DNA from: Actinomyces massiliensis 4401292
GTDB lineage: Bacteria > Actinomycetota > Actinomycetes > Actinomycetales > Actinomycetaceae
Direction of reading: 5' to 3'
DNA length: 64,000 nucleotides
NCBI RefSeq assembly: GCF_000269805.1
Contig: NZ_JH711483.1
Location: 227,261-291,260, forward strand
In this document: positions 12,518 to 63,929 of the stretch, piece after piece
Layout: every line of letters begins with the position of its first letter
How positions within the stretch are numbered: position 1 is the first letter of the stretch
Notes under the pieces: model-generated
The model's input: only the letters and a program-made list of their open reading frames with translations
What the model was told of the DNA's origin: nothing
Database searches by the model: none
Translations under genes and position numbers: made by a program

Positions 12518-12627
12518 GAGATCGGTCGTACTCCGCGCCGAGATCGGTCCGCTTCCGCACCGAGATCGGTCGTACTCCGGCTCGAGATCGGTCCATTTCC
12601 GCACCGAGATCGGTCCAGCTGCGGATA
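12518..12627 (+). repeat. 22-bp repeat array A (5 units, forward)
   Basis: GAGATCGGT cores start at 12518, 12540, 12562, 12584 and 12606, exactly 22 bp apart. The 13 bp between cores vary but usually contain TCCG. The array begins 11 nt after the prenyl synthase stop, in that gene's orientation, and ends just before the stop of the convergent lipoprotein gene. There is no U-tract like that of an intrinsic terminator. Confidence 0.9.
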
Positions 12628-12633
12628 GACCTC

Positions 12634-14217
12634 TCAGGAGGCGGCAGGAGACGGAATCTGCGCGGTCGTCTCCGGAGCCGACGTCGGGGTGGACGGTGAG
12701 GAAGGCGCTGCCGGTGCGGATGGCTCCGGAGAAGTCGAAGCGGAGGCGGAGTCGAGCCACTCGGTGGCGGGGAAGAATTCGCTATCGGTGGCCAGGCCCC
12801 AGGGGGTGACCACATCTATTTCTGACGGTCCGCTCCTGACGGCCGCCTTATAGGTTCTTGTGATCGTTTCGCCCGTGCTCACCGCTATGAGCTCGAGGCG
12901 ATCATTGCCGGGGGTGGCAGAGTGCCCGGGGTAGGAGACGTAGAGGACGCCGCCGAAGACGCCCATTCCCTCCGGGTCCACCCGGCCGTCCGAAGCCCAC
13001 GCGAACGCGATGGCGGGGGACGGGGCTCCGGGAAGCCGGACGGCGGCGGTGTCCTCATCGCCGTCGTTCTGACCAAGAGTGATGATCTCCTGCTGGTCCG
13101 AGGTAATGTCGGGCCAGTGCTTCAAGGCGACGTCCTTCTCCCAGCCGGCGTCCAGCTCGACGGTCTGGCCGGAGGCCCGGTTCTCCAGGTTCCGCGCGTA
13201 ACAGGGGGCCGCGGCCTCGGCGGAGTCCATGTAGTAGTACCAGCCGTCCCTGACCATGATCGGTATGTTGTCGCCGATGGGCTCATGGACGCCGTCGGCC
13301 AGGAACACGATCTCCCTGGTCGGGACTGTCTCATCCCCAATGCTGATCGCCTGGCCGTAGGACGTGATCGCGGTGCCGTACTGATTGCCGAGGACGGAAT
13401 GGGCGTCAAACTGGGTGGACAGGTCATCGGCGCTCAGTCGCAGCCCGATGTAGTCGGCATCAGCATGACCTTGGAGCGTCATATTGTCGCCCGCAAGGAT
13501 GAGTGAGGTGCGGTCTGCGGAAAAGGACAGATGCATGGAGGGGACGAGTTGGGCGTAGAACTGCTCGCTGAGGGTGGTGGAGGCGACGACGGCGCCGTCG
13601 GACAGGCGCACCTTGAGCATGAGAACCGAGCAGGTCCGCTCGTCGGGCAAGGTGTTACTGTAGGTCTCGTCGTCGGTCGTCCCGGCGCTCTGGGGCGGTG
13701 AGGTTGGTGAGGGCGCCGACGGCGTGCTGGTGCCGAGGGTGAGGTAGGCGTGTTCGGCGTCGAGGAGGGCGGGGCCGTCCGTGATTGTGATCCGGGCGGT
13801 TTTCGGGACATTGTCGTCCTGGTCATCGGGGTCCTTCAGCTCCACCTCCTTGGTGGTCCAAGCGCCGTCGGGGTCGTCGGGGCTGGCGGGGTCCGGGAGT
13901 ACGGCGCGGGTGGTGGGTCCGGAGATGTCGACGATGATGGGGCACCACCCGCCTGTGCAGGTCTCGCTCGCCTCGCTCAGCGCGGCGGCGCCGCACAGGT
14001 AGCGGTCGCGGGCGGCGTTGAGGGAGGTGATGAGGTAGGTTCCCGGCCAGGTGGGTTTGTCGGCGAAGGCCGAGGGAATGGCGTCGGGGCTGGGCGGCGG
14101 GATCGGCGTGGGTGGTTCGGCCTCGTGGCGCTTCCTCGGTACGCAGGCGGTCAGCGCAGGCAGGGCGGCGACGGCCGCGCCGGCGACTGCGGCGGTCAGG
14201 AAGGTGCGGCGGCGCAT
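12634..14217 (-). CDS. Tat-type lipoprotein, paralogue 1 of 5 (probable beta-propeller)
   Basis: Predicted exported lipoprotein of unknown function, 527 residues. Start chosen at the ATG preceded by AGGAG at 6-nt spacing; the frame runs upstream into repeat array B without another good start. The signal peptide has a twin-arginine motif (RRTFL, residues 3-7) and lipobox LTAC with the lipid-bearing Cys at 25. The mature part alternates short hydrophobic strands and Gly/Asp turns, suggestive of a PQQ-like propeller, with family blocks LSFSADRTSLILAG, LRLSADDLSTQFDAHS and IMVRDGWYYY, and a C-terminal EWLDS block. Unlike its paralogues it then carries a Ser/Pro/Thr-rich tail of about 40 residues. 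It is closest to paralogues 2 and 3. Confidence 0.8.
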   Translation of the reverse strand: MRRRTFLTAAVAGAAVAALPALTACVPRKRHEAEPPTPIPPPSPDAIPSAFADKPTWPGTYLITSLNAARDRYLCGAAALSEASETCTGGWCPIIVDISGPTTRAVLPDPASPDDPDGAWTTKEVELKDPDDQDDNVPKTARITITDGPALLDAEHAYLTLGTSTPSAPSPTSPPQSAGTTDDETYSNTLPDERTCSVLMLKVRLSDGAVVASTTLSEQFYAQLVPSMHLSFSADRTSLILAGDNMTLQGHADADYIGLRLSADDLSTQFDAHSVLGNQYGTAITSYGQAISIGDETVPTREIVFLADGVHEPIGDNIPIMVRDGWYYYMDSAEAAAPCYARNLENRASGQTVELDAGWEKDVALKHWPDITSDQQEIITLGQNDGDEDTAAVRLPGAPSPAIAFAWASDGRVDPEGMGVFGGVLYVSYPGHSATPGNDRLELIAVSTGETITRTYKAAVRSGPSEIDVVTPWGLATDSEFFPATEWLDSASASTSPEPSAPAAPSSPSTPTSAPETTAQIPSPAAS

Positions 14218-14316
14218 GTCGGTCTCCTGAAGCAGGACGGGACGGCGGGGGCTGAACTCACTCTTGCCCTCCGTCGCGGGGCTGACCATGGGCAGCCCTG
14301 CCCGCCCCCTTTCGTC

Positions 14317-14495
14317 GAGATCGGTCGTACTCCGCGTCGAGATCGGTCGTACTCCGCGTCGAAATCGGTCGTACTCCGCGTCGAAATCGGTCGTAGTCCG
14401 CATCGAGATCGGTTCAACCGACCGATCTCGGCGCGGAAGTGGACCGATTTCGAGCCGGAACCGGACCGATTTCGAGCCGGAACCGGACCGATCTC
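14317..14495. repeat. 22-bp repeat array B (5 forward + 4 inverted units)
   Basis: Forward cores GA(G/A)ATCGGT start at 14317, 14339, 14361, 14383 and 14405. Inverted cores (ACCGATCTC/ACCGATTTC) start at 14421, 14443, 14465 and 14487. The arms meet in a tight hairpin-like junction (GATCGGTTCAACCGACCGATC centre, 14407-14427). The inverted arm lies just 3' of paralogue 2 in its sense orientation. The gap between paralogues 1 and 2 (14218-14539) holds nothing else that I recognise. Confidence 0.9.
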
Positions 14496-14539
14496 GGCGA
14501 AGGGCGAAGGGCGGAAGGCAGAGGGCGAGGCCCGGCCGC

Positions 14540-15954
14540 TCAGGAATCGAGCCAGGCGGTGGCGGCGTAGAAGCCGTCGCGGCAGGCCAGACCCCAGGGG
14601 GTGACCACGCTCATGCCCGGGATGCTCGTCTTCTGATCGGTTTCGAGAATCGTCTCGCCGGTGCTCACCGAGGTCAGTTCGAGGCGCTGGGTGGTTCTAT
14701 CGTCGGATTCGTCGGGGTAGTACGTGGTGTACACGATGTCGCCGAGGATCCCCGCCCCCTGAGGCAGCGGCCGTTCCGCCGGCGTCCACCTCAGGGCGGG
14801 GCTGGCAGCACCGGGAGGACGAACAGTGAAGTCGGTGTCGTTGTCGCGCTCTTGAACGGAGATGATCTCCGGCTGGTCCGAGGCGATGGCGGGCCAGTTG
14901 GCCAGCCGCACCTCATCGGCTCCGTTCTCGTCCAGCTCGACGGTCTGGTCGGTGGCCCGGTTCCACGCATAGCCGCGATCGGGGGAGGCAGGGGAGGCAG
15001 GGGAGGCAGGGGAGCCGGTGGAGTACGAGTGCTCCTCGTAGTAGAACCAGTCGTCCTTCACATGATCGGCAGGCCAGGGGTGTCCTTCTGCGCGCCGTCG
15101 GCCAGGAATATGGTCGTTCTGCCCGAGGCGCTGATTGCCTGGCCGTAGGTCAGGACGCTGCGAGTGCGCTTGCCCTCGAGAATCGAGTGCGCGTCGAACT
15201 GGACGGACAGGTCCTCGGCGCTCAGCCGCAGGGCGACGAAGTCCGCGTCGACGTTGTCGTCGTTCGTGCTGTTGCTGCCCGCCAGGAGAAGAGCGGTGCG
15301 ATCGGTGGAGAACGACAGGCTCATGCGAGTGACATTCTTCGCGAAGAACCGCTCGTTGAGGGGCGCGGAGGCCGCGATGGCGCCGTCGGACAGGCGGACC
15401 TTGAGCGCGCTCACAGAGCAGGTTTCTCCCGACTGGAAATCGTGGGGGTCCACGTTGCTCTCCGGGTCCGGTTCGGACAGGGCGATGGTGCCGACAACCA
15501 GGTAGGCGTGCTCCTCATCAAGGAGGGCGGGGCCGATCACGATCGTGGTCAAGGCGCTCTTCGGGTCCTTGCCGATGGCGTAGCGGCTCACCAGCTCAGC
15601 CTCCGCCGTGGTCCAGGTGCCGTTCTTGTCCAGGAGCACCGCGCGGGTGGTGAGGGTGGAGACGTCGACGATGACGGGGCACCACCCGCCTGTGAAGGTC
15701 TTGCTCGCCTCGCTCGCCGTGGTTCCAGCGCACAGGTAGTGGTCGCGGGCGGCGGTGAGAGTCATGTTGGCCGCGACGTCCGGCCATGTCGGTCGCTCTG
15801 CGAAGGCCGAGGGGGCGGCGTCGGGAGTGGGTGGCGGCGTCGGGGCGGGTCGTCTGGAGCGCGTGGACCGGCCCGGCCAGCAGGCGGCCAGTCCGGGCAG
15901 GGCGGTCATGGCTGCCCCGGCGGCTGCGGCGGTCAGGAGGGTCCGACGGCGCAT
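14540..15954 (-). pseudogene. Tat-type lipoprotein, paralogue 2 of 5, split by a 1-nt frameshift
   Basis: The first frame starts at ATG 15954 (CGGAGG 6 nt upstream), has RRTLL and lipobox LAAC (Cys 25), and stops after ...GLPIM at 15058. The second frame starts at GTG 15061 (VKDDWFYY...) and ends in ATAWLDS at 14540. Paralogue 1 reads IMVRDGWYYY across the same point, so IM + VKDDWFYY is one protein of about 471 residues with one base lost (probably ATGGTG to ATGTG). The lesion leaves a GTGA stop/start overlap, so reinitiation could still make two pieces. A 9-bp tandem repeat encodes SPASPASPASP at about 14985-15015. It is a true lesion or a sequence error. Confidence 0.8.
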
Positions 15955-16024
15955 GATGGCCTCCGATGGTCGGAAGGGGACTGCGAATGGGAGGAACTCG
16001 GCTGAGGTTCTGTCGATGGTGAAG

Positions 16025-16393
16025 TCAGCTGTGGAGGAGCTGGGAGATGCGACCGGGGGAGACGCCCATAATGGCGGCGGCGTCGGCAACAGACAGTCCT
16101 TCGGCGCGCAGCGCGGCGGCCGCCTGGCGCGATGTGGTGACTGCCCGGGCTTGAGCCGTCTTGGCGTCGGCAGCGGCCTGGTGGGCGGTCCTGACGGCGG
16201 CGAGGCTGGTGATGTCGGGTACGACGTCGATCTGCCAGCTGGAGTGGTCCGTATCCTCATCGACGGTGTCGAGGTAGTCGATGACCTGCTGCTGGGCGTG
16301 GGACAGGGTTCGGACCTGGGTGTGGTGGTCGTCGTCGATCTCGAGCTCCCAGCCACCCGACCAACGATTCGCGGTGACCGTCAGTGTCGTCAT
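16025..16393 (-). CDS. hicB: HicB-type antitoxin
   Basis: Antitoxin of a type II HicAB module: it would neutralise the mRNA-cleaving HicA toxin and repress the operon. The 122-residue protein has an N-terminal HicB-like alpha/beta part (TVTANRWSGGWELEIDDD) and a C-terminal helix-turn-helix of the form GLSVADAAAIMGVSPGRISQLL (about residues 97-118). Its ATG overlaps the hicA stop as ATGA, the usual toxin-first order for hicAB. The toxin gene is frameshifted here, so the antitoxin may be an orphan. It ends 70 nt before lipoprotein paralogue 2. Confidence 0.75.
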   Translation of the reverse strand: MTTLTVTANRWSGGWELEIDDDHHTQVRTLSHAQQQVIDYLDTVDEDTDHSSWQIDVVPDITSLAAVRTAHQAAADAKTAQARAVTTSRQAAAALRAEGLSVADAAAIMGVSPGRISQLLHS

Positions 16394-16568
16394 ACCCGAC
16401 TCCTCTCAATTGCTCGCAGTGCATCCCGAACGGCCTTGGGGGAGACCTCTCGGGTCCGGGTGATCACCACGCAACGCCGCCGTTGCGCCACACCTCATGA
16501 TCACCCTTGCCCTGGCGCGACGTGAAGCCGGATTCGCGCAGTAGACGTGCGAGGTCGCGATACTTCAT
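16390..16568 (-). pseudogene. hicA: HicA-type toxin, 1-nt frameshift
   Basis: Too short for simple ORF calling. From ATG 16568 it reads MKYRDLARLLRESGFTSRQG, then KGDHEVWRNGGVAW and a stop. Shifting one frame near 16474-16482 continues as CVVITRTREVSPKAVRDALR and AIERSRV, with a stop at 16390 overlapping hicB. The two halves match the actinobacterial HicA pattern GKGDHEVW ... VVIT.TR.VSP, with the catalytic His in GDHEVW. One added base gives about 59 residues, the normal HicA length. The lesion coincides with a small perfect hairpin (7-bp arms, 16470-16487). The toxin is presumably inactive unless this is a sequence error. Confidence 0.75.
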
Positions 16569-16741
16569 CGGTTTCGTCACCACGAAATTTTATTGTGGCT
16601 AAAACGGTGCTGTCCAGGCGGAGATGCGACAGTGCCTGGACACGACCGGGGAAGGTCGCTCCATGGGCGGCGTTCCGAGTGACGACAGCGGCGGTGATGA
16701 GGGGGCGCCGGGCTGACGATGGGGAGCCTTGCCCCTTCGTC

Positions 16742-16876
16742 GAGATCGGTCGTAGTCCGCATTGAGATCGGTTCAGCCGACCGATTTCGGTGCGGAAGTG
16801 GACCGATTTCGAGCCGGAACCGGACTGATTTCGAGCCGGAACCGGACCGATTTCGGTGCGGAAGTGGACCGATCTC
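16742..16876. repeat. 22-bp repeat array C (2 forward + 5 inverted units)
   Basis: Forward GAGATCGGT cores start at 16742 and 16764. Inverted cores start at 16780, 16802, 16824, 16846 and 16868, 22 bp apart. The inverted arm begins about 15 nt 3' of paralogue 3, in its sense orientation. The sequence entering the forward arm (ctgacgatgggg...ccccttcg) resembles that entering array B, so the two regions look duplicated. The rest of 16569-16741 shows no gene. Confidence 0.9.
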
Positions 16877-16891
16877 GACGAAGAGGAGCGC

Positions 16892-18262
16892 TCAGGAATC
16901 GAGCCAAGCGGTCGCGGAGTGGAAGCGGCCATAGGTCACGGCGCCCCAGGGCGTGACGGCGTCGATGCTGGACATCTTGGTGCTCTGAGATTCCTGCACG
17001 AGGTTCTCTCCAGTGGTGGCGGAGATGATGTCGAGGCGATAGGTGAATTTGGCCTTGGGGTCGTTGGTGTCATTGATGGTGTATATGACATCGTCGAGAC
17101 TGCTGGCGCTTTTCGGCGCCGGCCGTTCGAATTCCGTCCATCTCAGCGCAGGGGCCGGGGCGCCGGGTTGGCGCACGCTCAACGCAGTGCTGTCCCAGCC
17201 GACGGTGAGGATCGTCTGCTGACCGGCGGTGACGTCGGGCCAGGTGTGCTTGGAATCCGCCAGGTCCCAGCCGTCCTCCAACTCGATGACGTCGCCCGTG
17301 CTCAGATTGCGCGCGCGGCTCAGAGCCTCCGAATCGTCTCCCTCCCCGTACTTGTAGTAGTACCAGCCGTCCCTGACCAGATACGGGTAATTCTCGCCGA
17401 GAGGTTCGTGGGCGCCGTCGGTCAGGAACACGATCTCCTCCCTGGAGGGGGCCGGATCGTGCCTGGTGACCACGGCCTGGCCTCCGGGGAAGACCTTGGT
17501 GAATTCTTTCCCGTCGAGGATGGAATGCGCGTCGAATTGAGTGGACAGATCATCGGCGCTCAGCCTCAGGCCGATGTAATCCCCCTGATCGCCCGTTTTC
17601 TGACCCGCCAGGAGGAGAGCGGAGCGATCCGAGGAGAAGGACAGGTTCATCGGCCAGGTGTCCTCGAGCGGAACATTCCTGCAGACCACGGCCGAGGCCG
17701 GCACGGCGCCATCAGCAAGATCGACCTTGAGCATGACGACGGAATCGATCTGTGTCGACCGCTCCATCTCCGAACTGCTCGAACTGCCCGGCTGGTCCGG
17801 TGAGGACAGGTCGATGGTCCCGACGACCAGGTAGGCGTGGTTCTCGTCGAGGAGGGCGGGGCCGAGCACGCTCGTGGTCAGCGCGGTATTCAGTTCCTTC
17901 CTCGTGTCCCTGATCAGCTCGGTCTCCTCAGTGCGCCAGTCGCCGTTGTCGTCCTGGAGCACCGCGCGGGTGGTCAGGGTGGAGACGTCGACGATCACCG
18001 GGCACCAGCCGTCCGTGAAGATCTTCTGCGCCTTGTCGGCCGTGGCGCCGCCGCATAGATAGCGACCTCTAGTGGCCTTGAGCTCAGTGCGGGCGGCATC
18101 GAGATCGGGCCAGACGGGACGTTCTGAGAAAGCAGAGGGAAGGGCGTCATCGGAGGGAGGCCTCTTCACCGACCGCCAGCTTTCCGAGCAGGCCCCCAGC
18201 GCGGGCAAGAGGGTGGTGGTGAGGCAGGCGCCGGTGACGGTGAGGAAGGTGCGGCGGCGCAC
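16892..18262 (-). CDS. Tat-type lipoprotein, paralogue 3 of 5
   Basis: Predicted exported lipoprotein of 456 residues, function unknown. The GTG at 18262 is preferred because TGGAGG lies 5 nt upstream and the product then begins with the twin-arginine motif RRTFL and lipobox LGAC (Cys 25). Family blocks are clear: WCPVIVDVSTLTTRAVLQD, LSFSSDRSALLLAG, LRLSADDLSTQFDAHS, VRDGWYYY, and the end in FHSATAWLDS. It lacks the Ser/Pro tail of paralogue 1. It lies 156 nt downstream of paralogue 4 and is followed by array C and the hicAB remnant. Confidence 0.8.
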   Translation of the reverse strand: MRRRTFLTVTGACLTTTLLPALGACSESWRSVKRPPSDDALPSAFSERPVWPDLDAARTELKATRGRYLCGGATADKAQKIFTDGWCPVIVDVSTLTTRAVLQDDNGDWRTEETELIRDTRKELNTALTTSVLGPALLDENHAYLVVGTIDLSSPDQPGSSSSSEMERSTQIDSVVMLKVDLADGAVPASAVVCRNVPLEDTWPMNLSFSSDRSALLLAGQKTGDQGDYIGLRLSADDLSTQFDAHSILDGKEFTKVFPGGQAVVTRHDPAPSREEIVFLTDGAHEPLGENYPYLVRDGWYYYKYGEGDDSEALSRARNLSTGDVIELEDGWDLADSKHTWPDVTAGQQTILTVGWDSTALSVRQPGAPAPALRWTEFERPAPKSASSLDDVIYTINDTNDPKAKFTYRLDIISATTGENLVQESQSTKMSSIDAVTPWGAVTYGRFHSATAWLDS

Positions 18263-18377
18263 GGTGGCCTCCAAATGGATCAGTGCTGCGAACGGGAACA
18301 GCCCTGATTCTGGACTACCGCGTTCCGATCCGTCGATGGGGACGGATGCCCGGTGCCGGTGCGGGCCGGTCCGCACC

Positions 18378-18418
18378 GGGTGGATCGATCGGGTGGATCG
18401 GGTGGATCGGTTGGATCG
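18378..18418. repeat. 9-bp tandem repeat GGGTGGATC
   Basis: About four imperfect copies lie in the gap between paralogues 3 and 4, ending next to the stop of paralogue 4. This is the same short-period repeat style seen inside several genes of the window. Confidence 0.7.
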
Positions 18419-19876: not shown

Positions 19877-20037
19877 TCGGAACTCCGGAAGGTCTGCTCA
19901 GGGCTGCAAGAAATACAATTCCATCCTCAAGCCGTGGAAGTAGCACCTGCCATGGGGACGACTCCCCATTTGTCCGGGCTCGCTCAGGTCCCCTCAGGTC
20001 TCCTCAAGTTCCCTCAGATTCGCTCAAGGCCTTTCGA

Positions 20038-31496: not shown

Positions 31497-31581
31497 GGCG
31501 GGTTGCCCGAGCGGCCAATGGGAGCTGACTGTAAATCAGCCGCGGAATGCTACGGGGGTTCGAATCCCTCACCCGCCACCA
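31497..31581 (+). tRNA. tRNA-Tyr (GTA)
   Basis: Acceptor GGCGGGT pairs with ACCCGCC. The anticodon stem-loop CTGACTGTAAATCAG gives anticodon GTA. A long variable arm is present as expected for bacterial tRNA-Tyr, the T-arm is GGGGGTTCGAATCCCTC, and CCA is encoded. Confidence 0.95.
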
Positions 31582-31670
31582 TGATCGCTTTGTTGTGGCT
31601 TGTGACGGCAGGACGATCAGGGCCGCCTTTCGGGGCGGTGGCACAGTGAGCGAGGACACTCGGGGCTGGA

Positions 31671-31700
31671 TTGCCACGGTAATTCCGGTCCGCATAGGAT
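31671..31700 (+). promoter_or_regulatory. Promoter of the tRNA-Thr/tRNA-Met/rpmG group
   Basis: TTGCCA (31671-31676) and TAGGAT (31695-31700) are separated by 18 bp, 10 nt before the tRNA-Thr gene. Confidence 0.6.
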
Positions 31701-31710
31701 CGCGCTCGTT

Positions 31711-31783
31711 GCCCCGATAGCTCAGTCGGCAGAGCGTCTCCATGGTAAGGAGAAGGTCAAGGGTTCGATTCCCTTTCGGGGCT
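31711..31783 (+). tRNA. tRNA-Thr (GGT)
   Basis: Acceptor GCCCCGA pairs with TCGGGGC. The anticodon loop in TCTCCATGGTAAGGAGA gives GGT. The T-arm is GGGTTCGATTCCC. CCA is not encoded. Confidence 0.95.
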
Positions 31784-31791
31784 CTGATGCC

Positions 31792-31813
31792 AGCGGGGCC
31801 GGAGGGCCCCGCT
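31792..31813 (+). terminator. GC-rich hairpin between tRNA-Thr and tRNA-Met
   Basis: Perfect 9-bp stem AGCGGGGCC/GGCCCCGCT with a 4-nt loop, 8 nt after tRNA-Thr. There is no U-run, so it may be a weak terminator or a processing signal. Confidence 0.4.
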
Positions 31814-31825
31814 TGTGTCGAATAT

Positions 31826-31899
31826 GGCGAGGTAGCTCAGCTGGTTAGAGCGCACGACTCATAATCGTGAGGTCGAGGGTTCGAGTCCCTCCCCCGCTA
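31826..31899 (+). tRNA. tRNA-Met (CAT, elongator type)
   Basis: The anticodon stem-loop ACGACTCATAATCGT gives CAT; D-arm GCTCAGCTGGTTAGAGC; T-arm GAGGGTTCGAGTCCCTC. The acceptor GGCGAGG pairs with CCCCGCT except for one A-C mismatch at the fifth pair and a G-T first pair. CCA is not encoded. Confidence 0.92.
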
Positions 31900-34143: not shown

Positions 34144-34710
34144 TCAATCTCTGCCGTCTCTGCCGCCTATATCGTGCGAACCGGACCGATCTCGGGCCGT
34201 ACTACGACCGATCTCGGCGGAAGGCGAGGGGAGGAGGGTGGCCAGCTCCTCCCAGACCGCCTCGAAGGCGGGCAGCAGCGGTGCCTCGCCGTAGACGTCA
34301 TCGGTGCCCGGGGCGGGCCGTTCCCAGGTGGTCGTGCCGTTGCGCCTCGCCGAGAGTCCCGAGAGCCCTGAGGGCGTTGAGGGCGCTGAGAGCCTGACCC
34401 AGCGTATTTCGAGGGATTCGCGATCCAACGGCACGAGTTCGTCCCACGCCTCGTCGGAGGGCGCCTGCGCCGTGAAAGTCGTGTACGACCAGTCCGGGTG
34501 GGCCTGGATGTGCTCGGCCCCCAAGCGGAGGACCCGGGCGGGCAGACCGGTCTCCTCCTCGCACTCGCGCAGTGCAGCCTCGGCGGGGCTCTCGCCGGCG
34601 CGCACCGCACCCCCGGGCACGCCCCAGGTTCCGCCCCTGTGGGTCCATCCGGCTCGCAGCTGCATCAGGATCTCGATACCGGCTCCGGTTTCTCGGGCGC
34701 GGCGCCACAC
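34144..34710 (-). CDS. NUDIX hydrolase
   Basis: Nucleoside-diphosphate-X hydrolase of about 188 residues. The NUDIX box is intact: GGAVRAGESPAEAALRECEE followed by ETG. Start problem: the family N-terminus AFGAAGLLVWRR begins upstream of the usable GTG 34710, but no start codon exists in frame. One extra G in the 7-base tract at 34734-34740 would bring ATG 34757 or 34772 (17 nt after maf) into frame. The last 25 residues (SAEIGRSTARDRSG...) are encoded by repeat array D, so the original stop may have been lost. A SGLSGLS-like 9-bp repeat lies near residue 110. Confidence 0.85.
   Translation of the reverse strand: MWRRARETGAGIEILMQLRAGWTHRGGTWGVPGGAVRAGESPAEAALRECEEETGLPARVLRLGAEHIQAHPDWSYTTFTAQAPSDEAWDELVPLDRESLEIRWVRLSAPSTPSGLSGLSARRNGTTTWERPAPGTDDVYGEAPLLPAFEAVWEELATLLPSPSAEIGRSTARDRSGSHDIGGRDGRD
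34185..34215 (-). repeat. 22-bp repeat array D (2 inverted units)
   Basis: ACCGATCTC cores at 34185 and 34207, exactly 22 bp apart, in the sense orientation of the NUDIX gene and inside its 3' coding end. Confidence 0.85.
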
Positions 34711-44046: not shown

Positions 44047-44134
44047 GAGATCGGTCGTACTCCGCGTCGAGATCGGTCGCAACCCGCGTCGAGATCGGTC
44101 GAGTTCCGCGTCGAGATCGGTCCGGACCGGATGT
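44047..44134 (+). repeat. 22-bp repeat array E (4 units, forward)
   Basis: GAGATCGGT cores start at 44047, 44069, 44091 and 44113. The array begins 25 nt after the purK stop in purK orientation, preceded by a 9-bp repeat (gaattcgcc), and lies between purK and purE. Confidence 0.9.
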
Positions 44135-45890: not shown

Positions 45891-46009
45891 AGTGATCTCG
45901 GTGCGGAAGCGGACCGATCTCGGTGCGGAGTGGGACCGATCTCGAGCCGGAAGTGGACCGATCTCGGTGCGGAGTACGACCGATTTCGAGGCGGAAGCGG
46001 ACCGATCTC
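45891..46009 (-). repeat. 22-bp repeat array F (6 inverted units)
   Basis: Cores at 45891 (partial), 45913, 45935, 45957, 45979 and 46001, exactly 22 bp apart. The array begins about 27 nt 3' of the LCP gene stop in that gene's orientation, in the convergent gap with galE. Confidence 0.9.
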
Positions 46010-46035: not shown

Positions 46036-46959
46036 TCAGGGCTGGTCGAAGTCCTTGGACGTCAGCTTGCCCGAGCGCATCTTGGAGAAGAAATCCGGGG
46101 CGGTGGTGTCCTGCAGGAGCACCGCGGCGCCGATCCCGCCCGGTTCGTAGTCGAGGCTTTCGATGGGCGGTGCACCGGTGAGCCCCTTGTTCGAGGCTGA
46201 GCGGAAGGCCAGTGCCATCTGCCCCAGGTCGAGTGCGGAGGCGTCCTCGTCCACGGTCAGGGCCTTCGTCCCGGAGTCGACGAGCTTGTCCTGCCGGAAG
46301 GGGTTGATGAGGGTCTGGGCCGACATGGCCTTCGAGACCACCGCCGAGACGACCGCTCGCTGGCGCTGGGCGCGGCCGATGTCGCCGGTCGGGTCGGACT
46401 TGCGCATGCGGGAGTAGGCCAGGGCCTTCTCGCCATCGACCTTCTGACAGGTGCCCTTGGATGTGTCCCATACCAGGGAGGAATCGGGGTCGTCCACGTC
46501 GTAGTCGAGGCACACCTCGACGCCGTCGACGGCGTCGACCATATTCGTGACTCCGCCCATGCCGACCTCGACGTAGTGGTCCATGGTCAGGCCCGTGAGC
46601 TTCTCGGCGGTCTCCACCAGCAGCGGGGCCTGCCCGTATGAGTAGGCCGCGTTGATCTTGTCGTCGTCATAGCCGGGGATCTCCACGTAGGTGTCGCGCG
46701 GCAGGGAGATCAGCGAGGCCTGCCCGTTGGACGCCTTGTGGAGCACCATGATCGAGTCGGCGCGCGAGCCCTCGGTGCCGTCCTGGGGCACCCCTCCGTC
46801 ATCGCGGGAGTCCGAGCCGACGATGAGCCAGGTCTCCCCGGGGGTGTCCTTGGCCCCGGACAGCGCCTCAATGCGATCGAGCTTGGAGTCGATGTCGTGC
46901 CACAGCCATGCCACGCGCCCCATGATGAGCACCAGGAGCAGGACGAGAATCGCCGCCAC
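46036..46959 (-). CDS. LytR-CpsA-Psr (LCP) family ligase, copy 1
   Basis: LCP proteins transfer lipid-linked glycopolymers onto peptidoglycan. This frame starts at a GTG inside the membrane helix (VAAILVLLLVLIMG) and contains the whole extracellular catalytic domain: GSDSRDDGG, ADSIMVLH, SLPRDTYVEIPGYDDDKINAAYSYG, MGGVTNMVDAVDGVEV and ALAYSRMR. The true protein is probably longer: coding sequence continues upstream in the same frame to about 47290, then in another frame to GTG 47453 (see next entry). It lies in a minus-strand run with the second LCP gene, DUF2304 and GT2. Confidence 0.88.
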   Translation of the reverse strand: MAAILVLLLVLIMGRVAWLWHDIDSKLDRIEALSGAKDTPGETWLIVGSDSRDDGGVPQDGTEGSRADSIMVLHKASNGQASLISLPRDTYVEIPGYDDDKINAAYSYGQAPLLVETAEKLTGLTMDHYVEVGMGGVTNMVDAVDGVEVCLDYDVDDPDSSLVWDTSKGTCQKVDGEKALAYSRMRKSDPTGDIGRAQRQRAVVSAVVSKAMSAQTLINPFRQDKLVDSGTKALTVDEDASALDLGQMALAFRSASNKGLTGAPPIESLDYEPGGIGAAVLLQDTTAPDFFSKMRSGKLTSKDFDQP

Positions 46960-55533: not shown

Positions 55534-55539
55534 GACCGG

Positions 55540-55545: not shown

Positions 55546-55590
55546 CTGGGCTCCTGCGCTCCTGCGCCGCTATCGTGCCACAATGATCGT

Positions 55591-56592
55591 GTGAAGGTCC
55601 TGCACGTCAATGACGTCGCCCGTATCGGCACCGCGCTGGTGCGCAGGGCGCGGGATGAGGGCCTGGCGTGGGACCTGTACGACACCGCCCGAGTCGATCC
55701 GGGCTGGTCGCCCCGAATGCGGCCGGTGCGCCGGGCGCTGCGAGGCGCCCGGTGGGAGGCCGGGCTCGTCCGCAGGGCCGTGCGCGCCGATCTGCTCGAC
55801 GTTCACGGGGCGACCGTGACGGCTCACACCAGCTGGTTGCGCAAGCCCTTCGTCCTGCACCTGCACGGCACGGACATCCGCGTACGCAGGTACGAGGCGC
55901 GCTACAGCGGCCTCGTGGCGGACGCGGTGCGCCGGGCGCGCGACGTCTACTACACGACGCCGGACCTGGCCGAGCACGTGATGGACCTGCGCCCGGATGC
56001 CGTCCTGCAGCCCGTGATCGTCGACGTCGAGGAGCTGGCCGCACATCATGAGGGGTCGGGGGGGCCGTTCCGGGTGATCTTCCCCTCCCGCTGGGATGCC
56101 GACAAGGGCGGGGACCTCCAGCTGGAGGTGCTCCGCATACTCCGGGCGGCGTACCGGAACTCGATTGCGATCGAGGGCCTGCAATGGGGCGAGGGCGCTC
56201 CGCGTGCGGCGCGCGACTACGGGGTCGGGCTGCGCCCGAGGATGACTCACGCCGACTACGCCCGTTGGCTGGCGACCGGGTCGGTGGCGGTCGGCCAGAT
56301 GACGGGCTGCATGGGGGTCTCCGAGCTCGAGGCCGTCGGCAGCGGGGTCACCACGGTGATGGCTCTGGACCGCCGCTGGTACGACGGCGCTCATGACACG
56401 ACGAGCGACGTTCCGGTGCTGGGCGGGCCCGTGGATCGCTCCGAGATGGTCGAGGCCGTCGTGGAGGGAGTCGGGCGGGCACTGGAGGGCGCGCGGGTGA
56501 CCAACGGGAGGTCCTGGGTGGCGCAGCGCCACTCCCCGCAGCGGGCGGTGGCCCGGCTCGTCGAGCGTTTCGAGCGCCTCGGGCCGGGGTGA
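55591..56592 (+). CDS. Glycosyltransferase (GT4-like, GT-B fold)
   Basis: Probable polysaccharide glycosyltransferase of 333 residues. N-terminal VKVLHVNDVARIGTALVRRA, then KPFVLHLHGTDIRVRRYEARY (acceptor-side loop), SRWDADKGGDLQLEVLRIL near residue 168 (donor-domain start), and a C-terminal part with GVSELEAVGSGVTTVMALD. It lacks a clear E-x7-E motif, so subfamily and sugar are uncertain. The GTG at 55591 is chosen because homology starts there; a TATCGT hexamer lies at 55571. The wecB gene is divergent. Confidence 0.75.
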   Translation: MKVLHVNDVARIGTALVRRARDEGLAWDLYDTARVDPGWSPRMRPVRRALRGARWEAGLVRRAVRADLLDVHGATVTAHTSWLRKPFVLHLHGTDIRVRRYEARYSGLVADAVRRARDVYYTTPDLAEHVMDLRPDAVLQPVIVDVEELAAHHEGSGGPFRVIFPSRWDADKGGDLQLEVLRILRAAYRNSIAIEGLQWGEGAPRAARDYGVGLRPRMTHADYARWLATGSVAVGQMTGCMGVSELEAVGSGVTTVMALDRRWYDGAHDTTSDVPVLGGPVDRSEMVEAVVEGVGRALEGARVTNGRSWVAQRHSPQRAVARLVERFERLGPG

Positions 56593-56629
56593 TCGGGGGC
56601 GCTCGCGGCGCCCATGATTCAATACCCGC

Positions 56630-58036: not shown

Positions 58037-59163
58037 CTGATACGACGGATCGTTCGACTCATTCAAACCGCCCGGATCGTTCGATGATGGTCTTCCACGC
58101 CCCTTATCCACTGGACCCCGATCCCGCCGCGGCCTCACGGCTCCGTCCGCTGCGGATGCGCCGTGCCTTCGAGGAGATCGGCTACGAGGTCATGGACATC
58201 AGCGGCGCCGTGGCTCAGCGCAGGGCCGGTCTGCGTCGTCTCAAGGAACTGCTCGCATCCGGGCGACGCCCCGATTTCCTGTACTGCGAGAACTCGACTC
58301 AGCCCAACGCCCTGGCGACGAGCCTGCGCACGGGCGTCGCACCGCTGTTGGATTACTCGATCATGCGCCTGGCGCGCAGGCGCGGCGTGCCCGTCGGCGT
58401 CTTCTACCGAGACGCGTACTGGCGCATGCCCGGGCTGCGGGCGTCGGGGGCCTACGGGGTCGCCTCGAACCTGCTCCAGCGGGCGGACTTGGCCGGGTAC
58501 AGGCGCAACCGGGTGCACTTCTTCCTCCCCTCGAATGCCATGTCCTCGCTGGTCGGGCTCGCGCAGTCGGACTCGTTCTCGGCGCTTCCCCCGGGTGGCG
58601 ACTCCGGGCGCGTCCTGCCGCTGCCGGCCCAGGAGGACGGATTGCGCCTGGTCTACGTGGGCGGGCTCGGCGGGCACTACGACCTGACCGTCGTCGCCGC
58701 GGCCCTGGAGAGGGTCGACGGCGTTGCGCTCGATCTGGTTGTCCATCAGTCCCAGTGGCGCCAGGCCCGTCGCCGGGACCCGCGACTGGGCCAGGGCGCC
58801 ATCAGGGTTCTTCACAAGTCGGCCGGGGAGCTGGAGCCCGTATACGCGCGCGCCCATATCGGGGTGCTGGCGGTGGCCCCCTCCGAGTACTGGGACATCG
58901 CGGTGCCGGTCAAGCTCTACGAGTACCTGTCCTACGGCCGTCCGGTGATCGCCACCCGGGGCACCGAGGCGGGGCGGATCGTCGAGGCCGCCGGCGCCGG
59001 CTGGGTCATCGACCATGACGAGGATCTGCTCGTCGCCCTGCTGACGGAGCTGCGCGGTCGCCCCGAGGAGGTCGAGGCCCGCGCAGAGGCGGCTCGGAGG
59101 GCGGCTGCGCGCAGCACATGGGCGGACCGGGCGCGCACGGTTGCGCGGACGCTTGCGCCCTGA
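58033..59163 (+). CDS. Glycosyltransferase (GT-B, GT4-like)
   Basis: Probable surface-polysaccharide glycosyltransferase of 376 residues. N-terminal MMVFHAPYPLDPDPAAASRL followed by RPLRMRRAFEEIGYEV, acceptor-domain VGVFYRDAYWRMPGLR, donor-domain start LRLVYVGGLGGHYDLTVVAA, and C-terminal VPVKLYEYLSYGRPVIATRG with a nucleotide-sugar-binding pattern. The sugar is unknown. It overlaps the flippase gene by 4 nt and converges with the next minus-strand gene. Confidence 0.82.
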   Translation: MTDTTDRSTHSNRPDRSMMVFHAPYPLDPDPAAASRLRPLRMRRAFEEIGYEVMDISGAVAQRRAGLRRLKELLASGRRPDFLYCENSTQPNALATSLRTGVAPLLDYSIMRLARRRGVPVGVFYRDAYWRMPGLRASGAYGVASNLLQRADLAGYRRNRVHFFLPSNAMSSLVGLAQSDSFSALPPGGDSGRVLPLPAQEDGLRLVYVGGLGGHYDLTVVAAALERVDGVALDLVVHQSQWRQARRRDPRLGQGAIRVLHKSAGELEPVYARAHIGVLAVAPSEYWDIAVPVKLYEYLSYGRPVIATRGTEAGRIVEAAGAGWVIDHDEDLLVALLTELRGRPEEVEARAEAARRAAARSTWADRARTVARTLAP

Positions 59164-59238
59164 CAGGACGTCCTGACAGGAGCGGGCGGGCCTGAGCCGG
59201 ACCGATCCGCACCGAGCCGGACCGAGCCGGAGCGCGTC

Positions 59239-60387
59239 TCAGCGCGGAGCCAACTCGCCGACGATCTCCCGGATCGTGCTCGCCTCGTGCTCGAAGCTGA
59301 GCTCGTGGGCGGCCCGGGCGCAGCGGGATTTGCAGGCCGCCACCTCCGCAGGAGTCAGGGCGTTGAGCGCTGCGACGATCGAGTCGGGCTCGAAGTCCTC
59401 GGTGACGACGCCGATGTCGAAGCCGTTGATGATGCGGGCCATCTCGAGTGTCGGTCCCGCGGCGACCGCGAGCCGGGCCTGGATGAAGTCGAAGATCTTA
59501 TTGGGCAGGGCCAGGCGCGCATTGGTGCTGTAGGGCGGAATCCAGTAGATGCCGACGTCGTATTCGTTGAGCGTGCGCGCGAGCTCGGCCGGTGCGACGG
59601 GATCGTGGAAGGTGATCCGGGCGCACCCGTGGGCCCTGCGGTGCAGCGCGCGCAGATAGCTGCCGCCGTCGTTGCCGGGAACCAGGTAGAGGTCGAGGGT
59701 CAGGTGGGGCGCGGCGGCCTTGACGGCGTCGATCATGGTCTCGATGTTGCGGCCCGCCACAGCGCCGCCCGAGTGCACCAGACGGATCGCGCCGTCCTCG
59801 CGCAGGGCGGAGGGCTCCAGGTCGGCGTAGGGGGCGGCATTGCGCACCAGGCGCGGCGCGACACCGTAGTGCTCGAGGTACAGGTCGGCGATCGAGGCCG
59901 CCACTGTCGTCACGGCGGCGCATCTGGGCAGGTAGCCGCGGCAGATGTGATCCATGAGCGGAGCCACCAGGAGGCGCCAGCTCGTGACGTGGGTGCGCTC
60001 CTCCGGCGCCCACTCGTGCATGTCCGCCCATACCGGAGCGCCGCGGGCCACCGCGAACGCCGTCGGGATCGCGCGCGCGTCGTTGGCGACCACCACGTCG
60101 AACTCGCGCCCGTCCACGAGGCGGATCGTCTCGCGGGCGGCCGGGGCCGCCAGCTCGCACGCCCGCAGCCTGCGCAGGGCGAGCCCGGCCACGCCCGCGG
60201 GCGTCTGCGGAAGGGACGGTGCGTCATCGGGGATTCTGAGGTGATCGACCACGTGGGGAGGCCGCGTTCCGTAGCCCGCGGAGGTCACCTCGCCGATCTC
60301 GGCGAGTGCGCTGATCTCGCGCAGGACCCGGGCGTCCCTGTGGATCGGCGAGAAGGAGATGACCAGGATCCGCGGGCGTCTACTCAC
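59239..60387 (-). CDS. Glycosyltransferase (GT4-like)
   Basis: Probable GT-B glycosyltransferase of 382 residues, on the opposite strand to its neighbours. N-terminal RILVISFSPIHRDARVLREI, typical of GT4 members; DMHEWAPEERTHVTSW in the acceptor domain; RLVHSGGAVAGRNIETMIDA at the donor-domain start; ALPNKIFDFIQARLAVAAGP near the nucleotide site. GTG 60387 has TAGAAT 6 nt upstream. Confidence 0.85.
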   Translation of the reverse strand: MSRRPRILVISFSPIHRDARVLREISALAEIGEVTSAGYGTRPPHVVDHLRIPDDAPSLPQTPAGVAGLALRRLRACELAAPAARETIRLVDGREFDVVVANDARAIPTAFAVARGAPVWADMHEWAPEERTHVTSWRLLVAPLMDHICRGYLPRCAAVTTVAASIADLYLEHYGVAPRLVRNAAPYADLEPSALREDGAIRLVHSGGAVAGRNIETMIDAVKAAAPHLTLDLYLVPGNDGGSYLRALHRRAHGCARITFHDPVAPAELARTLNEYDVGIYWIPPYSTNARLALPNKIFDFIQARLAVAAGPTLEMARIINGFDIGVVTEDFEPDSIVAALNALTPAEVAACKSRCARAAHELSFEHEASTIREIVGELAPR

Positions 60388-60393
60388 GGACGC

Positions 60394-60399
60394 ATTCTA
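60394..60399 (-). promoter_or_regulatory. -10 element of a leaderless promoter for the 60387 glycosyltransferase
   Basis: Minus-strand TAGAAT, close to consensus, lies 6 nt before GTG 60387. Confidence 0.5.
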
Positions 60400-60507
60400 A
60401 ACCCCCGGTTCCCGACCGCTTCTGCCGCATGCGCGTCCCGATGGCGTTCCTGTGACTTTCCAGTGACATACGATGTCGCCGGAAACCGGCCGCTCGAAAG
60501 GAGCCGT

Positions 60508-61812
60508 ATGCGCATCGCCGTCGTCGCCCTGGGGAAGATCGGGCTGCCCCTGGCGGTCCAGTACGCCGACAAAGGCCATGAGGTCATCGGGATCGACGTC
60601 GCCCCCGCCATCGTCGAGGCCGTCAATGCCGGGAAGGAGCCCTTCCCCGGCGAGGCGCACCTGGCCGAGAAGCTGGCCGCCCTGAACCCGGCCACCGGCA
60701 ACGGCGCCCTGCGCGCCACCACCGACTACGCCGAGGCCATCCCCGGGGCCGATGCGATCGTCCTGGTGGTCCCCCTCTTCGTGGACGACGCCACCTGGAA
60801 CCCCGACTTCGCCTGGATGGACGACGCCACCCGCTCCCTGGCCGCCCACCTGACCCCGGGCACCCTCATCTCCTATGAGACCACCCTCCCGGTGGGCACG
60901 CTGCGGGGCCGCTTCAAGCCCATGATCGAGGAGATCAGCGGCCTGAAGGAGGGCGCAGATTTCCACCTCGTCTTCAGCCCCGAGCGGGTCCTGACCGGCC
61001 GCGTCTTCGCCGACCTGCGCCGCTACCCCAAGCTCGTGGGCGGGCTGAGCCCGGAGGGCGCCCGCGCGGGGATCGACTTCTACGAGCAGGTCCTCGACTT
61101 CGACGAGCGCGACGACCTGCCCCGCCCCAACGGCGTGTGGGACATGGGCACGGCCGAGGCCGCCGAGATGGCCAAGCTGGCCGAGACCACCTACCGGGAC
61201 GTCAACATCGGCCTGGCCAACCAGTTCGCCGTCTACGCGGACAGGGCGGGATTCGACATCGAGCGCGTCATCGAGGCGTGCAACTCCCAGCCCTACTCCC
61301 ACATCCACCGCCCCGGCATCGCGGTGGGCGGGCACTGCATCCCGGTCTACCCGCGCTTGTACCTGTCCACCGACCCCGACGCCTCCATCGTGCGCACCTC
61401 GCGCTCCTTCAACGCCACCATGCCCGCCTACGTGGTGGCTCGCGCCACTGAGATCCTGGGCTCGCTGGAGGGGCTGCGCGTCGTGGTCCTGGGCGCCTCC
61501 TACCGGGGGCGCGTCAAGGAGACCGCCTTCTCCGGCGTCTTCCCCACCGTGGCGGCGCTGCGCGAGGCCGGTGCCGAGGTCCTGGTCCACGACCCCATGT
61601 ACACCGACGACGAGCTCGCCGCCTTCGGCTGGACCCCCTACCACCTGGGGGAGAGGATTGATGCCGCGATTGTCCAGGCCGACCACCCTGAGTACCATGA
61701 ACTCGCCCCCGTTGATCTCCCTGGTATCAGGCTGCTCCTGGATGGCCGTCGCATCACTGACGCGGGCAACTGGACGGGCGTGCCCCGCCTGACCATCGGA
61801 GGAGGGGAATGA
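60508..61812 (+). CDS. UDP-N-acetyl sugar 6-dehydrogenase (WbpA/WecC-like)
   Basis: UDP-Glc/GDP-Man dehydrogenase family enzyme of 434 residues, expected to oxidise UDP-GlcNAc (or UDP-ManNAc) to the uronic acid. N-terminal VVALGKIGLPLAVQYADKGH followed by EVIGIDV, VLVVPLFVD, FHLVFSPERVLTGRV, KLAETTYRDVNIGLANQFA, and the catalytic Cys 277 in GIAVGGHCIPVYPRLYL. The C-terminal UDP-binding domain has LGASYRGRVKETAFSGVFPT. AAAGGAG precedes the ATG. With the acetyltransferase, aminotransferase, oxidoreductase and epimerase nearby it completes a Wbp-type pathway. Confidence 0.92.
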   Translation: MRIAVVALGKIGLPLAVQYADKGHEVIGIDVAPAIVEAVNAGKEPFPGEAHLAEKLAALNPATGNGALRATTDYAEAIPGADAIVLVVPLFVDDATWNPDFAWMDDATRSLAAHLTPGTLISYETTLPVGTLRGRFKPMIEEISGLKEGADFHLVFSPERVLTGRVFADLRRYPKLVGGLSPEGARAGIDFYEQVLDFDERDDLPRPNGVWDMGTAEAAEMAKLAETTYRDVNIGLANQFAVYADRAGFDIERVIEACNSQPYSHIHRPGIAVGGHCIPVYPRLYLSTDPDASIVRTSRSFNATMPAYVVARATEILGSLEGLRVVVLGASYRGRVKETAFSGVFPTVAALREAGAEVLVHDPMYTDDELAAFGWTPYHLGERIDAAIVQADHPEYHELAPVDLPGIRLLLDGRRITDAGNWTGVPRLTIGGGE

Positions 61813-63830
61813 TCCACGTTGTCGCAGGCGTTCTGCTGGCAGCCGCGCTCCTGACCGCCCCCGGGCTGCTCCTGGCGCGCCTGGGGGGCGTGCGGGGCTG
61901 GAGCGCCGCGAGCGCCGCGCTGCCGCTGAGCTGCGCCGTCATCGGTACTGCTGAAATCGTGGCCGCGGCCGTCGGGTCGGCCTGGGTCCCCTGGGGCTGG
62001 GCCGCTATCGCGGGGGTGACCGCGGTCGCCGCGGGTCTGCTCGTGGCCGTGCGCCGCCTCATCCCCGGCGGCCGGACGCAATCCGCTGATCCGCCTCGGG
62101 ACGGTGGCGGGCGTCCCGACCTGCGCGTGCCGACCGGGCTGGCGGTGGCGTGCCTCGTCCTCGGGATCGGCACATTGGCCGGCATGGGGTCCATGTCCAC
62201 CCCGGCTCAGGCCTTCGACATCGTTTTCCACTCCAACGCCGTCCAGGCGATCCGCCAGCTGGGGAACGCCTCCAGTTTCGGAAGCATGTCGGCGCTCTAT
62301 CAGGGGGTGCCCACCTACTACCCGACCGTGTGGCACGGAGCGGTGGCACTGCTTCCCGCCAGTGTGACGGTGTCCTCGAATGCGATGGTCCTCGTCGTCG
62401 CGGCACTGGCCTGGCCGCTGGGCATCGCCGGTCTGCTCGCCGAGGTCCTCGGCGCCGAGCACTCCCGGAACCGCACTGCGATTGCTCTGGGCACCGTCCT
62501 GAGCGCCGCCACGGTGGGGGCGCCGACGATGCTGCTGGGCACCTTGGCGGTGTGGGCCTACACCCTGAGCGTGATCTGTCTGCCCGGGGTGGTGGTTCTG
62601 GGCCTGCGCCTGTTGCGCTCCGTGCCCGCGGACAGTGCCGGAGAGGGCGCCCTCGAGGGCTTCTCCGAGGGGGAATCCGAAGAGGAGAGGGCTCGAACGC
62701 GGTCCTCGTTGTCCGATCTGATCATGAATGGTGTGCTGTTCGTGGGCGGAGGGATCGGCGCGGTTCTGGCCCACGGTGCGGGGACCTTCAACACCATGGT
62801 GCTCCTCGGGCCGCTCGCCGTGGTCCTGATCGTGCGCCTGGTGCGCGCCGGCGGTCGGCGCAAGACGGTGACGCTCCGTATTCTCGCGGTGCTGGCCGTG
62901 TGCGTCCTGATCGGGGCGTGGGTGATGCGCGAGTCCCTGGTCTGGGTCTGGCGATACCCCCGCGGCGGCGGAAACCTTCTGGGAACCCTGGGGCAGGCCC
63001 TGCTCGACCTGCCGCAGTACGGGGCGTTCTCCTTCCAAGGAATTCCGATGATCGTCGGGGCGCCTCTGGGCATCGTGGTGTGCGGGCTGGCGGTATTCGC
63101 GGCGGTCCGCGTGCCTCAGGCGCGCCCGTGGCTGGTGACGGCGGCGGTGGCGCTGTGCCTGGTCACGCTCGTCGGCGGACCGCAGTGGTGGGGGCGTCGG
63201 ATCGGCGCCCTGTGGTACTTGCAGAAGGCGCGCGTGCAGCCGCTCGTCATCATTCCCGGCCTCGTGCTGGCCACCCTGGGGCTGCGCCGTCTGCTTGAGG
63301 CGCGCCCCGGGCGCAGGATGACCGCCGTGCTCCTCGTGCTCGTGTGCGCCGCCGCTGTGGGACGCATGCCGCTGCACGCGAAACTGGCGCGATCGGTCCA
63401 CGATGCCGACCGGATCGCCTATGGCACGATCCTCACCTCTGAGGAGGCGGACTTCATCACGTCTCTGAGCGACCAGCTGCCCGAGGACGCCCTGGTCGTG
63501 GGAGCGCCCTCGCGGGGAGAGAGCTATCTGTGGGCGCTCGGAGGAATCGACGTCGTGTATCCGCTGCGCTCGAGGCCGACGCAGGGAACGGCCGCCGACA
63601 TGCTCGCCTCCGCGGCCCCGGATCTGCGGCCGGGGTCGACGACGTGCCAGCTTCTCAATGAGCTCGGAGCCGAGTACTACTTCCGGGCCGACCGGGGAGC
63701 AGCGTGGGACGGTCGGGAGGCGCCCCTGCGCTGGGACAAGGCGCTGGCCGACTGGCCCACTGACGGCATGGAGCCGGTGGCCTCCACGAGTACGGCCGGC
63801 CTGTGGCGGATCACCGCCTGCGGCGACTGA
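61809..63830 (+). CDS. DUF6541-type polytopic membrane protein (possible GT-C transferase)
   Basis: Large membrane protein of 673 residues with about 12 hydrophobic segments and a soluble C-terminal domain (about 520-673). After the fourth helix the loop AQAFDIVFHSNAVQAIRQLG resembles the acidic extracytoplasmic loop of GT-C enzymes, followed by YQGVPTYYPTVWHGAVALLP. The C-terminal part has VVGAPSRGESYLWALGGIDV and two Cys. This matches actinobacterial DUF6541 proteins; glycosyl transfer is inferred from topology and context only. The ATG overlaps the dehydrogenase stop. Confidence 0.8.
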   Translation: MIHVVAGVLLAAALLTAPGLLLARLGGVRGWSAASAALPLSCAVIGTAEIVAAAVGSAWVPWGWAAIAGVTAVAAGLLVAVRRLIPGGRTQSADPPRDGGGRPDLRVPTGLAVACLVLGIGTLAGMGSMSTPAQAFDIVFHSNAVQAIRQLGNASSFGSMSALYQGVPTYYPTVWHGAVALLPASVTVSSNAMVLVVAALAWPLGIAGLLAEVLGAEHSRNRTAIALGTVLSAATVGAPTMLLGTLAVWAYTLSVICLPGVVVLGLRLLRSVPADSAGEGALEGFSEGESEEERARTRSSLSDLIMNGVLFVGGGIGAVLAHGAGTFNTMVLLGPLAVVLIVRLVRAGGRRKTVTLRILAVLAVCVLIGAWVMRESLVWVWRYPRGGGNLLGTLGQALLDLPQYGAFSFQGIPMIVGAPLGIVVCGLAVFAAVRVPQARPWLVTAAVALCLVTLVGGPQWWGRRIGALWYLQKARVQPLVIIPGLVLATLGLRRLLEARPGRRMTAVLLVLVCAAAVGRMPLHAKLARSVHDADRIAYGTILTSEEADFITSLSDQLPEDALVVGAPSRGESYLWALGGIDVVYPLRSRPTQGTAADMLASAAPDLRPGSTTCQLLNELGAEYYFRADRGAAWDGREAPLRWDKALADWPTDGMEPVASTSTAGLWRITACGD

Positions 63831-63841
63831 GCAGCAGCGTC

Positions 63842-63929
63842 GAGATCGGTCGTACTCCGCGTCGAGATCGGTCGCATTCCGGCTCGAGATCGGTCGCATT
63901 CCGCGTCGAGATCGGTCGCACCCCGTGCC
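63842..63929 (+). repeat. 22-bp repeat array G (4 units, forward)
   Basis: GAGATCGGT cores start at 63842, 63864, 63886 and 63908. The array begins 11 nt after the stop of the DUF6541 gene in its orientation. The last 70 nt of the window hold no certain gene. Confidence 0.9.

Follow-up and report, generated by a model that had tools for sequence, protein, structure and literature searches.

Polar arrays of repeated protein sites (TTF-I, Reb1) lie behind eukaryotic rDNA, at one locus, and in the neisserial NIME/dRS3 mosaic elements short single inverted repeats bound varied intergenic bodies. The STAR element of Staphylococcus is built from a 14-bp motif, T(G/A/T)TGTTG(G/T)GGCCC(C/A), with 40-44-bp spacers, and neither 'orientation' nor 'stop codon' appears as a term in the main text of its description (PMC3532100). 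PMC3733652 characterizes REPs as short palindromic sequences that carry GTAG or CGTC at one end and are in many cases associated with RAYTs. The TAACTGA repeats of Beggiatoaceae and Cyanobacteria have a 7-bp unit and, in the main species of PMC4679880, mostly stand just upstream of start codons. Here, a family of dispersed direct-repeat arrays from a 64-kb stretch of Actinomyces DNA (the window, i.e. the whole stretch analysed) is compared with these systems. Its arms, runs of at least two units in one orientation, carry a short core at a fixed pitch and are preferentially placed in sense behind stop codons. They are read here, tentatively and with a probability of roughly 0.36, as a mobile-like direct-repeat family that has been kept as polar transcript-end elements.

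Array structure and placement behind stop codons

The genome containing the window (own genome; 3.37 Mb, 13 contigs) was searched for the core as proposed in the earlier note. 560 exact pairs of cores separated by 13 nt were obtained (273 forward, 287 reverse), compared with 0 for a reversed-pattern control. Closer analysis was performed on 464 kb (own sample), consisting of 400 kb of contig C1 and the window, in which 83 arms with 334 units in total were identified. Within a range of 10-60 bp, the distance between exact-core neighbours in this sample was 22 bp in 167 cases, 44 bp in 19 and never any other value. The 22-bp period claimed earlier was thus reproduced for the own genome. It is not universal: in the 114 kb read of relative G023, core neighbours were mostly 23 bp apart (18, versus 1 at 22 bp), and the whole G023 genome holds 73 pairs at 22 bp. 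Use as a single, uptake-like motif was rejected, as only 6 single-core chains stand beside the 83 arms. A CRISPR was likewise rejected, because the 13-14-nt spacers recur across loci and are not unique; no cas gene search was made.

The own unit reads CGAGATCGGTC-S-nnn-TCCG-nn-YC (334 units, 83 arms), and the last element of an arm is a bare core. Across lineages the shared core is cGAGnyCGG, and arms comprise 2-10 cores at fixed pitch. In the own genome, a C-rich leader with CGYC at its end often stands ahead of an arm; in 34 of the 83 arms the 4 nt before the first core read CGCC, and in 14 they read CGTC. The variant core GAAATCGGT was found at 1 of 83 first positions versus 36 of 251 later cores. 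Arms with an even number of units outnumber those with an odd number (57 versus 26, p = 0.0009), and spacer identity is 0.617, 0.766 and 0.617 at lags 1, 2 and 3. Because lag-2 spacers are more alike and even arm lengths are in excess, 44 bp is taken as a higher-order unit. Loci of A. gerencseriae and A. israelii, most of which were picked through the pair pattern, gave a weaker 44-bp signal (even 74 versus odd 50, p = 0.04; spacer identity 0.726, 0.808 and 0.67). Despite the lag-2 likeness, spacer type did not differ between odd and even index in own arms (p = 1.0).

A sense stop codon was located within 60 nt on the 5' side of 32 of the 83 own arms, compared with 7 for flipped arms and a mean of 6.0 (maximum 17 in 1000 runs) for random noncoding placement. 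Arms of relatives, grouped by the spacer dialects listed below, behaved in the same way (300 random runs per dialect). Here, the counts were 18 of 29 arms for dialect A (random mean 2.6, flipped 3), 12 of 30 for B (1.7 and 5), 8 of 17 for C (1.8 and 0) and 8 of 15 for D (1.3 and 4). The placement and orientation that had been proposed from the window therefore hold in the own genome and in all four dialects, and the random genome-wide placement that the earlier note had named as evidence to the contrary did not occur in the own sample. Sense placement behind stops is a general tendency, not a rule for each arm. The 56 segments between stop and core (3-60 nt) contain C and G at 0.49 and 0.26, versus 0.34 and 0.35 behind 194 array-less stops. 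Three of the 83 own arms lie inside predicted genes, and 43 are unpaired. Several arrays of G024 with a GTGTTCGCC-like leader are not close behind any stop.

The window holds nine arms with 37 units, the same total and the same coordinates as the 37 cores at seven array positions reported before. Exact cores number 18 in forward and 9 in reverse orientation; the remaining 10, one or two bases off, were admitted solely at 22-bp spacing. Genes were called with a codon-usage script, and purK was placed by hand.

12518..12614, + strand: arm of 5 units, 10 nt past the stop of the polyprenyl synthetase gene (11401-12507, +)
14317..14413, + strand: arm of 5 units, an exception to the stop rule, with the predicted start of gene 12634-14289 (-) 27 nt away
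14421..14495, - strand: arm of 4 units, 44 nt past the stop of predicted gene 14540-15061 (-)
16742..16772, + strand: arm of 2 units, breaks the stop rule
16780..16876, - strand: arm of 5 units, 15 nt past the stop of predicted gene 16892-18262 (-)
34185..34215, - strand: arm of 2 units, within the 3' part of the NUDIX gene (34144-34710, -), sense
44047..44121, + strand: arm of 4 units, in the interval from the purK stop (44021) to the purE start (44190)
45891..46009, - strand: arm of 6 units, 26 nt past the stop of the LytR_CpsA_Psr gene (46036-46959, -)
63842..63916, + strand: arm of 4 units, 11 nt past the stop of the DUF6541 gene (61809-63830, +)

Six of the nine arms start 10-44 nt past a sense stop, in agreement with the placement first described. 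The forward arms at 14317 and 16742 had been recognized as exceptions and remain so, as does the position of the 34185 arm inside its gene. The names prenyl synthase, NUDIX, purK, LCP and DUF6541, given earlier to neighbouring genes, are matched by Pfam domains. Among the 10 flanking proteins scanned, polyprenyl synthetase, NUDIX, PurK, PurE (AIRC), epimerase, LytR_CpsA_Psr and DUF6541 domains were detected, and three proteins beside the 14-17 kb arrays, where lipoproteins had been proposed, gave no Pfam match. The first arm occupies most of the 126-bp gap before the convergent predicted gene 12634-14289 (-). Two pairs, 14317..14413 (+) with 14421..14495 (-) and 16742..16772 (+) with 16780..16876 (-), face each other across a 7-bp centre. 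An Rfam scan of the window matched three tRNA genes (31497-31899, + strand) alone, and membership of a known RNA family was rejected on these grounds.

Spacer dialects and sharing of array sites

Relatives were searched with the pattern CGAGNYCGG-N13-CGAGNYCGG. At least 10 core pairs were present in 17 of 49 Actinomyces genomes, and on some chromosomes the arrays number from dozens up to hundreds. In 164 genomes from other genera of the family no more than 1 pair each was found (control up to 3), and in 393 sampled genomes of the class no more than 4 each (control up to 5). Among the genomes surveyed, the array family was found only in Actinomyces. A tandem-repeat scan of 20 kb each was without match in 18 relatives, including G002, which later gave 3 pairs. 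For G047, the distribution was uneven, with 172 generic core pairs counted genome-wide versus only 2 arms in the 160 kb read.

Spacers fall into dialects, whose labels were assigned by the authors from the listed sequences.

Dialect A: G000, G009, G013
Dialect B (spacers of 13 nt and of 14 nt): G010, G023, G024, G027 and others
Dialect C: G025, part of G011
Dialect D: G006, G008, G016
Further dialect: G002, G047
L205 8995-9160 (G024), L168 and L189 (G023): dialect-B loci showing the two spacer types

Because its spacers have 13 or 14 nt, dialect B has a pitch of 22 or 23 bp, and one of its arrays alternates 22,23,22,23,22,23,22 bp. A single dialect prevails in each of five well-sampled genomes; as counted with a rough script, units of the main dialect were 51 of the 55 read in G009, 80 of 82 in G024, 17 of the 20 in G025 and all 19 in G016. 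An RpoB tree was available for 40 of the 49 Actinomyces genomes, with G047 among the 9 missing and the G028 row 21% filled; G042 is tagged 'few' on this tree and gave 37 pairs in the pattern search. Dialects A, B, C and D need one change each on the tree, each on one side of a branch, with branch supports of 99/85, 99/99, 100/100 and 93/81, respectively. Since one change per dialect suffices, the dialects follow descent, with some mixture.

Array sites were compared at orthologous 3' ends that are terminal in both genomes. Across dialects, arrays were present in both genomes at 6 ends, in the own genome only at 20, in the other only at 6 and in neither at 89. Arrays were shared more often than expected by chance (6 of 26 ends versus 6 of 95; Fisher p = 0.021, gene permutation p = 0.032), and the corresponding table without terminal restriction reads 6/22/9/225 (p = 0.002). 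No species alone reached p = 0.05 in the terminal test. Examples from the window are the polyprenyl synthetase 3' end, whose orthologous end in G024 bears a dialect-B array, and the LytR_CpsA_Psr 3' end, with arrays at the orthologous ends of G009 and G013. For the purK end, arrays of G009 and G013 are at the corresponding place by syntenic alignment coordinates.

Transcript ends, RNA structure and mobility

Sense placement, rigid pitch, two-unit organisation, dialects along the RpoB tree and cross-dialect sharing suggest a polar element, as does own-genome RNA structure that is no stronger than at array-less ends. In the mechanism envisaged, a putative dedicated sequence-specific protein would bind at least two cores at one pitch, and RNA polymerase coming from the gene side would pause or be released, the array acting as a roadblock terminator or insulator. 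The fixed pitch despite different spacers would fit a protein needing evenly spaced cores, and the polarity would fit an effect on arriving RNA polymerase. Dialects would reflect co-evolution of the putative binder with its sites. New copies may arise via dispersal in the manner of miniature inverted-repeat transposable elements (MITEs) and duplication of 2-unit (44-bp) blocks, and would be retained mainly in sense behind stop codons. A stronger form of this reading, an Actinomyces-specific 3'-end punctuation in which the specificity of a putative dedicated reader and hundreds of sites would drift into dialects while arrays recolonise the same ends, is considered unlikely. Should there be a binder, the co-evolution of a DNA- or RNA-binding protein with hundreds of sites could be tested by swapping dialects.

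Folding was expressed as z against dinucleotide shuffles, with 134 array-less 3' ends, all from the own genome, as control. The sense strand folded better than the antisense strand in own arms (z -0.48 versus +0.30, p = 8e-9), other dialect-A arms (-1.35 versus -0.93, p = 0.016), dialect C (-1.03 versus -0.46, p = 0.009) and dialect D (-2.46 versus -1.80, p = 1e-4). For dialect B (sense z -1.92) the strand difference was not significant (p = 0.25), and the array-less ends showed none (-0.81 versus -0.77). Together with the sense orientation of the arms, these strand differences argue for an element of the 3' untranslated region acting in RNA, in which core-core pairing (CCGA/UCGG, tandem G-A) would protect, terminate or process the mRNA; the B and D values also exceed the own-genome control. 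Such an RNA element is nevertheless doubtful. Own arms are less folded than array-less own ends (z -0.48 versus -0.81), with -37.5 versus -39.6 kcal/mol over the first 100 nt (p = 0.27), and the strand contrast is not significant in B. Dialects B and D fold well on both strands, as expected of any dyad-rich repeat, and the dialect D core has C for T in one half with no compensating change opposite in the logos. Hairpins in RNA also do not require a rigid pitch.

Intrinsic terminators with at least 5 T in 8 nt were found at 1 of 43 ends with arrays, compared with 3 of 199 array-less and 4 of 199 shuffled ends. With at least 4 T in 8 nt, they were found at 6 of 43 array ends and 24 of 199 array-less ends, for which no shuffle is available for comparison. 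Hairpin plus U-tract terminators were thus at shuffle level among the 256 terminal gene ends of the own sample, and arrays, with a U-tract at 1 of 43 ends under the stricter threshold, were rejected as intrinsic terminators of the GC hairpin and U-tract type. U-tract terminators are not in excess in the sampled part of the own genome, which bears on how transcripts end there.

Arms also bound composite elements, which, like the spacer dialects, the 44-bp unit and the low conservation of single arrays, go beyond the earlier note. In the own sample, 21 pairs of inward-facing arms are separated by less than 1 kb; their centres measure 7 bp (three), 18 bp (two), 109-111 bp (six), 137 bp (one) and 305-848 bp (nine). 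Each of the six 109-111-bp centres is a copy of a LacI gene's 3' tail with inward-facing arms on both sides; the arm behind the tail copy holds two units. A body family of about 350 bp contains GCACATGGGAG / CTCCCATGTGC as internal inverted copies. Its members are found next to arms or between them, some have no arms, and the family is also present in A. israelii. The single composite-element copy searched against Rfam gave no match.

C1:232101-232426 and C1:260426-260662 (L095, L097): LacI-tail elements (examples)
C1:119997-121013, - strand: full LacI gene
C1 2021-2374, 160819-161176 and 239153-239507, and L023 5703-6024: bodies of about 350 bp (examples)
G024, L179 3860-4680: element of about 0.8 kb with arms within longer terminal inverted repeats

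Terminal inverted repeats around a dispersed body, a trait of MITEs, are found in some copies only. The inward pairs with their recurrent centres, the LacI-tail copies, the bodies of about 350 bp and the G024 element favour selfish, non-autonomous mobile repeats, MITE-like or STAR-like and without host function. Insertion of such repeats would favour 3' ends, e.g. single strands exposed at the end of transcription, or copies elsewhere would be purged, and dialects would be successive amplification waves out of few masters. This origin is possible, if somewhat improbable, given the bias of orientation and position in all four dialects tested and the sharing of arrays across dialects at orthologous 3' ends. 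At E 0.001, RAYT (Y1_Tnp, PF01797) was detected in 5 of 14 control genomes and in none of the 49 from Actinomyces. No autonomous partner was seen among 14 listed arm-bounded, gene-bearing intervals, whose sole transposase (rve) appears nested, with inverted repeats of its own. No target-site duplication was established, the flanks of the few orthologues compared being too diverged for by-eye alignment.

Binding of gyrase or nucleoid proteins has been proposed for E. coli BIMEs. Chromosome-structure sites of this kind, which would absorb supercoils behind transcription units, could account for 3'-end placement, inward arm pairs and a two-turn pitch; polarity relative to genes is not expected of them, and they are a very improbable explanation here.

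Several observations weigh against polar transcript-end elements. Of the 83 own arms, 51 have no sense stop within 60 nt on their 5' side, orientation makes less difference in dialects B (12 versus 5 flipped) and D (8 versus 4), and arrays stand with similar frequency behind terminal ends of the convergent (24 of 126) and the codirectional kind (19 of 130). The site-sharing signal is modest and most individual arrays are not conserved; same-dialect terminal ends gave 4 with arrays in both genomes, 9 in the own only, 5 in the other only and 42 in neither (p = 0.09). G011 is mixed (8 of 18 listed pairs type C, 10 other types) and the two G042 arms read are of differing type, and because the dialects are impure in this way, the argument from co-evolution is weakened. 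Little sharing between relatives and the mixture in G011 both suit selfish repeats. Arms of relatives fold strongly (z -1.03 to -2.46, against a control from the own genome only), and better folding of the sense strand would suit a role in RNA too.

Comparison with known repeat families

The earlier statement that no named family has this layout was borne out by a literature search, in which the array family was undescribed; the search left aside bioRxiv preprints and most subscription journals. The bounding of different bodies is shared with NIME/dRS3, and, of the two, only the Actinomyces family has direct 22-bp arrays, going by the general description of the neisserial elements. With TTF-I/Reb1 arrays there is a functional analogy only, and no homology is claimed.

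Actinomyces arrays resemble REP, BIME and REPIN sequences as high-copy, extragenic, mobile-like and lineage-specific repeats. Unlike the REPs of PMC3733652 they are direct arrays, and strict REP/RAYT membership was rejected since Y1_Tnp is absent from the 49 genomes searched. With the TAACTGA repeats, as presented in PMC4679880, they share dispersed intergenic direct-repeat arrays that are oriented relative to genes. In combining a rigid pitch, a tendency to sense placement behind stops and a spelling that is specific to the lineage, the Actinomyces family resembles none of the bacterial repeats compared.

The nearest kind, judged from PMC3532100, is the staphylococcal STAR element, and the arrays are best classed as interspersed intergenic direct repeats. 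A conserved core, semi-conserved spacers, variable copy number and dispersal between genes were all found in the Actinomyces arrays, and a start signature is common to both, as are locations that vary between species; the function of STAR is given as unknown. Strict STAR membership was rejected, as neither the 14-bp motif nor 40-44-bp spacers are present. Instead, the Actinomyces arrays have a 9-bp core of other sequence, 13-nt spacers and a 22-23-bp pitch, and they differ from STAR, as it is described there, in a tendency of arms to be in sense behind stop codons, in lineage dialects and in inward-facing arms that bound MITE-like elements.

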